Shown piece by piece: positions 6,886 through 16,826 of a stretch of 64,000 nt of DNA. The translations under genes were made by a program, and so were the position numbers. The first letter of the stretch is position 1. Each line of letters opens with the position of its first letter. The DNA is from Rubrivivax sp. (GTDB taxonomy: Bacteria > Pseudomonadota > Gammaproteobacteria > Burkholderiales > Burkholderiaceae_C), in contig JAIXSE010000003.1 of the NCBI GenBank assembly GCA_027484825.1, positions 1 to 64,000 on the forward strand. The letters are read 5' to 3'. The notes under the pieces are model-generated. The model searched no databases and had not been told where the DNA came from. It worked only from the letters and a program-made list of their open reading frames with translations.

Positions 6886-6980
6886 ACGGGCGTGAGGCGG
6901 GGGGTATTGACGGAAGTAAAAGGGGGAGCCCGCGGAGCGGGCGGAGGACATGAAGTCAATACCCCCCGCCTCATGCCCGT
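6886..6980 (+). repeat. Nested-hairpin intergenic element, copy 1
   Basis: This is the main content of the 340-bp gap between def and the FecR-like gene. Outer arms 6886-6911 and 6955-6980 are complementary over 26 positions, with one pair a G-T that is a G-U wobble in a plus-strand transcript (6892 with 6974). The 43-nt core (6912-6954) starts GGAAGTA and ends GGACATGAA. At core positions 17-31 (6928-6942) it contains a second hairpin, GCCCGC-GGA-GCGGGC. Outside the arms, GCGAG (6873-6877) and CTCGC (6981-6985) could extend the stem across an 8-nt bulge. A second copy with the same core layout but different stems lies at 16728-16826 on the other strand. No coding potential is supported. Confidence 0.85.
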
Positions 6981-16692: not shown

Positions 16693-16714
16693 GCGTTCTT
16701 CGGGGCGCTTTTTT
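16693..16714 (+). terminator. Intrinsic terminator of ybbA with UUCG tetraloop
   Basis: GCGTTC-TTCG-GGGCGC (two G-U pairs) is followed by six T residues (16709-16714). It lies 37 bases after the ybbA stop and just before the nested-hairpin element. Confidence 0.65.
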
Positions 16715-16727
16715 CTTTGACCGCGCT

Positions 16728-16826
16728 GGAAGCCGGCAAGCGGGCCCCCTTTTGCTTCATGTCCCCCGGACCCTTCGGGTCCTCCTCCTAATACTTCCGC
16801 AAAAGGGGACCCGCTTGCCGGCTTCC
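16728..16826 (-). repeat. Nested-hairpin intergenic element, copy 2
   Basis: This lies in the 284-bp gap between the convergent ybbA and DUF2062 genes. Outer arms 16728-16755 and 16799-16826 pair over 28 positions with a single exception (16745 with 16809), which is a G-U wobble only when read on the minus strand. The 43-nt core read on the minus strand (16798 to 16756) starts GGAAGTA and ends GGACATGAA, exactly as in copy 1 at 6912-6954. Core positions 17-31 again form a hairpin (GGACCC-GAA-GGGTCC) with different bases from copy 1. The outer stem sequences of the two copies are unrelated. The rest of the gap holds only the ybbA terminator. Confidence 0.85.

Follow-up and report, generated by a model that had tools for sequence, protein, structure and literature searches.

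Two hairpin elements lie in the window, by which we mean the whole 64-kb stretch of DNA that was analysed, one on each strand and the second in a gap between convergent genes. Their parts are given below, together with the strength of their folds (z) and their matches to R1, a covariance model built from 15 copies of the element.

6886..6980, plus strand: copy 1, whole hairpin element (short form); fold z -9.95; R1 match at 6894-6972, 97.9 bits
6886..6911, plus strand: copy 1, 5' arm of the outer stem, 26 bp, pairing with 6955-6980; single wobble G6892-T6974
6912..6954, plus strand: copy 1, conserved core of 43 nt; A6915 pairs with T6951, a position covarying between A-T and G-C across the family
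6928..6942, plus strand: copy 1, inner 6-bp hairpin with a GGA (GNA) triloop
6955..6980, plus strand: copy 1, 3' arm of the outer stem
16728..16826, minus strand: copy 2, whole hairpin element (short form), in the convergent-gene gap; fold z -9.12; R1 match at 16738-16816, 95.7 bits
16799..16826, minus strand: copy 2, 5' arm of the outer stem, 28 bp
16756..16798, minus strand: copy 2, conserved core of 43 nt
16768..16782, minus strand: copy 2, inner 6-bp hairpin with a GAA triloop
16728..16755, minus strand: copy 2, 3' arm of the outer stem
16708..16727, minus strand: copy 2, 3' flank AGCGCGGTCAAAGAA..., similar to the sequence found 3' of some other Roseateles copies

Both copies were found at the positions and on the strands (6886-6980, plus; 16728-16826, minus) that an earlier sequence-only reading had assigned to them, and their anatomy was reproduced as it had been described: the outer stems of 26 and 28 bp, paired and sharing no sequence, were re-derived at both copies, the 43-nt cores carry exchanged base pairs in an inner hairpin with a 3-nt loop, and the sole non-Watson-Crick pair of each outer stem is G-U in the core orientation and is left unpaired when the opposite strand is folded. 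The RNA folding energies were -67.7 kcal/mol for copy 1 and -71.4 kcal/mol for copy 2, and 0 of 200 shuffles were equally stable. A filled site orthologous to that of copy 1 is present in the sister genome (G003), where the gap of copy 2 holds two copies: a long form oriented like copy 2 and a short form facing the other way. A 3' flank of the AGTCA/TCAAAG type, scored with a rough pattern, accompanies 17 of 72 Roseateles elements. The covariance model search revealed no third copy within the 64-kb window, and only one tRNA passed the Rfam gathering threshold there; at permissive E-values copy 1 gave 60 Rfam matches far below gathering, mostly to miRNA families, and the matches of one long form were of the same kind. 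In a literature search with most subscription papers and bioRxiv preprints outside its scope, no description of such a structure was found, and none of six taxon names sought occurs in PMC12306157 (RepRanger).

The spaced pattern GGAAGTA-N15-35-GGACATGAA had seven exact matches in the 5.66-Mb genome, all seven enclosed by long stems of differing sequence as judged by eye, against none for a reversed control pattern, and the matches are thus not due to chance. A slightly wider pattern was matched in five of 100 genomes, comprising the own genome, the sister genome G003 (8 matches), which matches Roseateles depolymerans, G001 (one divergent copy), G033 and G054; the last two matches (L008 and L009) have no stem and were rejected as chance. 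The search with a covariance model that the sequence-only reading had called for was run with R1, and at E <= 0.01 all but one of the 16 same-genus genomes proved to have the element. The copy numbers, for which the best 150 candidates per genome were scored, are minimum values: at least 45 in this genome (G000), at least 48 in G003, at least 36 in G011 and at least 22 in G001; G010, of the same genus, had no match at E <= 0.01 among its best 150 candidates. At E <= 1e-4, the family-level group yielded matches in at least 147 of its 399 genomes, so that the further copies in related genomes on which that reading had staked its claim do exist. The broader model R2 matched at least four of 369 class-level and at least 11 of 398 phylum-level genomes, the own genome being in both sets, and all of these belong to the own family (f1) or to a single other family (f53); the best 11-12 candidates per genome were scored in the family-, class- and phylum-level searches. 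Among named genome contigs at least 113 stretches match, and the 80 matches listed include Roseateles, Paucibacter, Pelomonas, Mitsuaria, Rubrivivax, Ideonella and Aquabacterium as well as Rhodocyclaceae, Sulfuritalea, Luteimonas, Pseudoxanthomonas and others. One contig labelled Nostoc sp. CMAA1605 (NZ_PJIZ01000188.1, L182) carries an element near-identical to those of two Roseateles-titled stretches (L156 and L157) and is probably a contamination of the assembly. Viral spread of the elements was rejected, as in IMG/VR the exact pattern matched one contig only, near the contig end.

Each unit is built from an outer stem of about 27 bp with free sequence (24-33 bp at the 5th-95th percentile; median 27), which encloses a purine-rich core and, within it, an inner hairpin. 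Across 95 distinct Roseateles rows and 24 pairs, 97.2% of the cells hold standard pairs, and both sides are changed in 690 cells compared with 196 +/- 9 after shuffling and no more than 173 in slid controls, with covariation scored at 0.810 versus 0.177. The proposal that structure is kept while the outer sequence is free thus holds across the Roseateles alignment. Since kinship among copies can inflate covariation in an alignment, the comparison of orthologous copies weighs more. Matching 35 elements of G000 with 39 of G003 by both flanks yielded 22 copy pairs with a flank identity of 82-94%, in which one G000 copy was matched to two tandem G003 copies; the pair L052/L010 was left out because an apparent one-base insertion in each arm shifts the stem. 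The 528 orthologous stem positions include 461 unchanged Watson-Crick pairs, 8 unchanged G·T pairs and 1 unchanged mismatch. Two-sided changes number 32 from Watson-Crick to Watson-Crick and 1 to G·T; of the one-sided changes, 18 exchange Watson-Crick for G·T or the reverse and 7 gain or lose a mismatch. Orthology is doubtful for C3:67122 and C5:4406, which have just 16 of 24 stem pairs in common; at least 24 two-sided replacements persist without this pair. These comparisons show that the shape of the stem is kept at individual loci by compensatory change.

The distribution of wobble pairs tells the strands apart. At stem depths 18-24, which lie outside the window of a stem finder that accepts G·T and not A·C as paired, 286 elements hold 131 G·T and 8 A·C pairs beside 1534 Watson-Crick pairs and 43 of other kinds, whereas the shifted control yields 567 G·T versus 370 A·C. 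Since a G·T pair reads as A·C on the complementary strand, the core strand must be the folding one. Within the core, the strands GKAAGT and ACAYGRA can be aligned as G·A, K·R, A·G, A-T/G-C, a bulged A, G-C and T-A, and of these contacts the fourth alone is shown by covariation. The set of 293 elements examined here consists of related copies together with loci retrieved with patterns in which parts of the core are fixed, and because the finder fixes most of GKAAGT/ACAYGRA, the near-invariance of the A·G (293), T-A (293), G·A (291) and G-C (292) contacts is largely by construction. The finder left A or G at core position 4 and T or C at its partner mutually free, and this fourth pair, formed by A4 with the U of AUG, was A-T in 224 and G-C in 69 of the 293 elements. 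Recounted on model-based alignments with 94 and 128 distinct complete rows, from which 1 and 3 partial rows were excluded, it was A-T in 93 and G-C in 1 of the 94 Roseateles rows, and A-T in 96, G-C in 31 and A/G in 1 of the 128 rows. The change from A-T to G-C also occurs between the orthologues L059 and L076. The neighbouring core positions are near-invariant (A3 and T6 each in 127 of 128 rows) and hence uninformative on their own pairing.

A further contact adjoins the inner hairpin; in 248 type-A cores it is A·G in 197, G·A in 39, A·A in 12 and G·G in 0. Out of 13 scored orthologous pairs, five swap A·G and G·A, eight keep the contact and none is uncoupled; two of the five swaps are both members of one inverted pair (L060/L080) and may represent one event. 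In L060/L080 both members carry one inner-hairpin variant, which is the same in both species, and the A·G contact is swapped in both. Another set of inverted pairs, L052 in G000 and L010 in G003, has an inner-hairpin variant that is common to both members within a species and differs between species, and here the outer stems of the members differ, as in a concerted change of the core only. A bulged-G (loop E) motif, which had been offered as a speculation for AGUA opposite GAA, does not survive in the family: the base after AGU varies between copies among A, C, T and G, and GAA is in fact GRA, with a second letter of G in 61, A in 31 and T in 2 of the 94 Roseateles rows. A G-quadruplex, considered from four GG runs in the core, was dropped as the cores of subfamily B, inspected by eye, lack them.

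A long form with about 70 nt more in the core occurs in G003 and in other genera. The additional module comprises a hairpin with tandem G·A pairs, often with a AAACAGTCC/GGACTGTTT tip, followed by a hairpin of the 9-bp type, and eight of nine single-sequence folds form a four-way junction, L283 being the one that does not. R3, a model of seven long forms, was run on 40 chosen genomes with the best 77 candidates scored per genome and matched at least 37 of them, many matches being short forms; this genome has at least two full-length matches. A few false matches of stem-only long-form searches (L172 in one, C2:57490 in another) were dropped by eye. In three of the 22 orthologous pairs the element is long in one species and short in the other. 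The pair of C2:97962 (long) and C5:185502 (short) is firm; copy 2 of the window was matched to the long C5:61445 by orientation, but the short C5:60978, which lies in the opposite orientation, has almost the same stem (23 and 22 of 24 pairs common); the third is the doubtful pair C3:67122/C5:4406. The module was also detected outside complete elements in ten partial matches (L413-L422; for example around 493-563 of L418), after a sequence of the CCCCCTAC-GGC...GCC-CCCCTCAAGGGGG type in L415, L418, L419 and L421, after a similar GC-rich hairpin in L416 and L420, and in other contexts in L413, L417 and L422, while L414 looks like a decayed long form. From these partial matches we conclude that the module also belongs to at least one repeat context other than this element. 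In L422 the two-hairpin module stands twice in tandem. The genes neighbouring ten long forms, compared by eye, differ from each other, and no version of the element with up to 8 kb inside the core was found in 1.84 Mb of fetched DNA, in which three matches proved to be neighbouring copies.

With gene calls from a simple GC3 caller, 10 of 90 Roseateles elements fall inside called genes, 4 at edges and 14 too far away, and 62 could be classed. Convergent gaps hold 28 of these, tandem gaps 15 in sense and 15 in antisense orientation, and divergent gaps 4, against 106 background gaps of which 64 are tandem, 25 divergent and 17 convergent. The 149 elements of named contigs comprise 17 inside called genes, 34 at edges, 20 too far and 78 classed, the last being 23 convergent, 20 sense, 27 antisense and 8 divergent. 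The copies are accordingly mostly intergenic, favouring convergent gene ends, and have no sense bias. A bias toward one replication strand was not found in the one genome counted by hand, where 13 of 22 single copies lie on the lagging side, with origin and terminus placed by GC skew in 20 sampled stretches. Units occur singly, as head-to-head pairs or in tandem, with a spacing of 146 nt in L070. In G228, 20 of at least 23 short-form matches form 10 head-to-head pairs, and two of the three unpaired short forms face a long form; in G311, 16 of at least 32 matches form 8 such pairs and 9 more face a long form by hand count; in G271, 10 of at least 32 form 5 pairs and 22 are single, the short-form counts being drawn from the best 150 candidates. 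Among 33 elements in 20 fetched pair regions, 21 lie in convergent gaps, 3 are antisense in tandem gaps, 8 stand at edges and a single one falls inside a called gene. Several G228 dimers (L302, L303, L306 and L307) carry, by eye, inverted boxes resembling CATCGCCG.../...CGGCGATG about 25 nt beyond their stems, which could possibly be the true ends of a mobile unit; such boxes were not seen in the G311 dimer L312.

The 12 elements of G003:C5 allow inheritance to be followed: nine have a counterpart in this genome (one of them doubtful) and three have none, from which we take the copies to be mostly inherited, with some gain or loss. C5:277516 and C5:280174 correspond to an empty syntenic place in G000, and C5:60978 is an extra copy beside C5:61445; the flanks of the empty sites have diverged so far that neither insertion ends nor a target duplication could be defined. 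One or two Y1 transposases are present in all 16 same-genus genomes. The Y1 gene occupies a common place in L066 (2020-2880), L088 and L250, with the element just upstream. It is bounded in L066 and L088 by inverted repeats of the GGGGACAGA/TCTGTCCCC type, and degenerate tandem repeats of the 3' tail of the element (GCGCAGTCAGAGAACCGAGCC-like) lie between element and Y1 gene in L088 (around 2029-2190, reversed strand) and L250 (620-810).

Taken together, these results show that the two sites of the window are members of a dispersed, mostly intergenic and strand-specific family of structured repeats, in which one strand folds into a free-sequence rod of about 27 bp, a purine-rich core with an A-U/G-C pair and an A·G/G·A contact, and an inner hairpin. 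The follow-up confirmed the original observation as correct and understated. It is the combination of two-sided stem changes between orthologues, covariation and contact swaps in the core, and the G·T bias that argues for folding of one strand and for selection of its shape at each locus. Template-switch (quasi-palindrome) correction is an established mechanism by which arms could be kept complementary with no selection on a fold; it would produce two-sided stem changes unselected and account for the near-perfect long stems. Such correction, however, should act alike on both strands, unlike the 131 G·T versus 8 A·C pairs. Nor can arm-to-arm correction explain the exchange of A·G for G·A seen in orthologues, since the two are not complementary copies, and we consider a neutral palindrome of this kind extremely improbable. 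A mobile origin through the Y1 transposases, with the element serving as the TIR or REP end that a RAYT/TIRYT enzyme recognises and mobilises, would agree with the finding that in G000, G003 and G011 a Y1_Tnp gene immediately follows a copy, the two being placed between a dgt-like and a gltB-like gene, and with the dimers and dispersed families that TIRYT repeats form (PMC3733652, section 16). Against this, a full element was found at two of the 47 Y1 loci scanned, both being one syntenic Roseateles place, while two other Roseateles loci of the 47 had none and the scan gave one further weak match of 40 nt (E 0.011, in L372); the element was present at none of the 30 Y1 loci fetched, out of 44 matches, from other element-bearing genomes, and eight of 34 element-bearing genomes lacked a Y1 match. 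The Y1 gene has its own GGGGACAG repeats, which are separate sequences, the GGGGWSAS motif is broken in 51 of the 248 type-A cores (GGAGGAC), and the base after GGGGACA is T rather than S. We regard mobilisation by this transposase as very unlikely.

As to the nature of the folded strand, the original hedge between RNA and single-stranded DNA still fits. Loop assignments from folds with RNA parameters place a triloop in 208 of 293 inner hairpins, with GNA in 166 of the 208, and loops of 5-9 nt in 51 of the 293; the 34 tetraloops are GNNA in 22, of which 12 are GNRA, and UNCG in none, and C-G closes 227 of the 242 tri- and tetraloops. GNA loops occur in RNA as well, some loops are GNRA tetraloops or 5-9 nt long, and the loops of the other hairpins of the long form are not GNA, all of which count against a DNA reading. 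The titles of references 29 and 30 in PMC11101458 refer to GNA loops as extraordinarily stable DNA minihairpins, and for the STAXI repeats an argument from UUCG loops favoured RNA (PMC2864571, section 26). The prevalence of GNA loops and the lack of sense bias thus lean to DNA, if only slightly. Our tentative best explanation, which we hold at a little short of an even chance, is that the folded strand is DNA and acts as a REPIN-like element read by a putative protein, and the head-to-head dimers of G228 and the preference for convergent gaps speak for it as well. The single strand would be exposed during replication or repair, the protein would recognise the core and the nearly fixed-length rod and not the sequence of the stem, and the present copies would be mainly vertically inherited, and from time to time gained, lost or altered by exchange of core modules. 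Counted against this REPIN-like explanation are the absence of general linkage to Y1 genes, the fact that head-to-head dimers are not universal (G271 having mostly single copies), the even split of single copies between replication strands in the genome counted (13 of 22 lagging), and a per-copy selection in orthologues that exceeds the needs of a purely selfish repeat. Alternatively, the folded strand could be a dispersed structured RNA built of a long rod and a non-canonical core, either transcribed on its own as a small RNA or carried in read-through transcripts as a site for protein binding or processing, and the long form would then be a four-way-junction RNA. In keeping with RNA, G·U is tolerated and A·C is not, compensatory change occurs at orthologous loci, and the long form is complex, a conserved hairpin being bordered by tandem G·A pairs in eight of nine single-sequence folds (L283 otherwise); moreover, BRE, likened to the family by description only, overlaps expressed small RNAs in other Betaproteobacteria according to section 14 of PMC3110155. 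Weighing against RNA are the lack of bias in gene orientation (tandem gaps hold 15 sense and 15 antisense copies in Roseateles, and 20 and 27 in named contigs), the predominance of GNA triloops with UNCG absent, and the lack of an intrinsic terminator: a terminator-like T-run (at least five T in the 8 nt after the stem) follows 0 of 292 stems on the core strand and six of 292 on the other, on which ground such a function for the element was itself rejected. On balance we hold an RNA to be only slightly less probable than DNA.

REPs and similar bacterial intergenic repeats are largely sequence-defined, whereas in this family more than 50 nt per copy are free in sequence, and the pairing, strand, stem length and small core that are kept in orthologous copies point to recognition of structure. 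The family supplies tens of natural compensatory mutants per genome and a ready covariance model, and offers Roseateles depolymerans as a test organism, for asking whether ssDNA or RNA is involved and which protein reads the repeats. It might even stand for a new class of single-strand-structured elements, in which a free-sequence rod of nearly constant length and a non-canonical core would be read by a putative ssDNA- or RNA-binding protein, selected at each locus, moved as head-to-head dimers and open to swapping core modules with another repeat family, a generalisation that we judge rather unlikely.

Several known systems invite comparison. REP, BIME and REPIN sequences with their RAYT (TnpA_REP) are described as dispersed intergenic palindromes that form inverted dimers (PMC6006769; PMC3733652, section 16; PMC3116915; PMC8266576), and the family resembles them in being palindromic, dispersed and intergenic, often in inverted dimers, and clustered, as well as in the G-T stem pairing and the ssDNA hairpin mechanism reported and proposed, respectively, for REPs. 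REP stems in these descriptions are mostly of 6-9 bp and bear a GTAG/GTGG tag, whereas here the stem has about 27 bp and free sequence with the conserved part inside. The methods of PMC6006769 define the GTAG class by GTAG or GTGG at 0-2 nt 5' of the hairpin; among the listed elements, by eye, the bases before the inner hairpin are instead of the GGAG, AATG or AATT types and those before the outer stem vary, and a linked RAYT (Y1_Tnp) gene flanked by copies was not found as a feature of the family. The TIR families of TIRYT are likewise repeated, some being self-complementary, form dimers and are largest in Stenotrophomonas maltophilia (PMC3733652, section 16). The present family differs from them in that GGGGWSAS is not kept and Y1 genes are not generally flanked by copies, and the S. 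maltophilia families 1152 and 4509 enter the comparison by description only. STAXI (PMC2864571) is a repeated structured motif as well, for which ssDNA or RNA was discussed from the type of loop; it is described with pseudoknots, UUCG loops and a location near DNA-processing genes, whereas the family has mostly GNA loops and varied neighbours. The 'Burkholderiales-1' motif of 2010, listed in a table in the same article, enters the comparison by name only. BRE (Hot et al. 2011; PMC3110155) was identified in Bordetella, Comamonadaceae and one Azoarcus through an identity of more than 70% between sequences, in contrast to the free stem sequence of the family, and the comparison, including any identity with the family or with the second repeat context, is one of descriptions only. 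With a length of about 90 bp, a high GC content, a usually intergenic and tandem occurrence in Betaproteobacteria, a mobile-like habit and no co-orientation with replication, BRE is nonetheless, in taxonomy and habit, the closest of the published descriptions.
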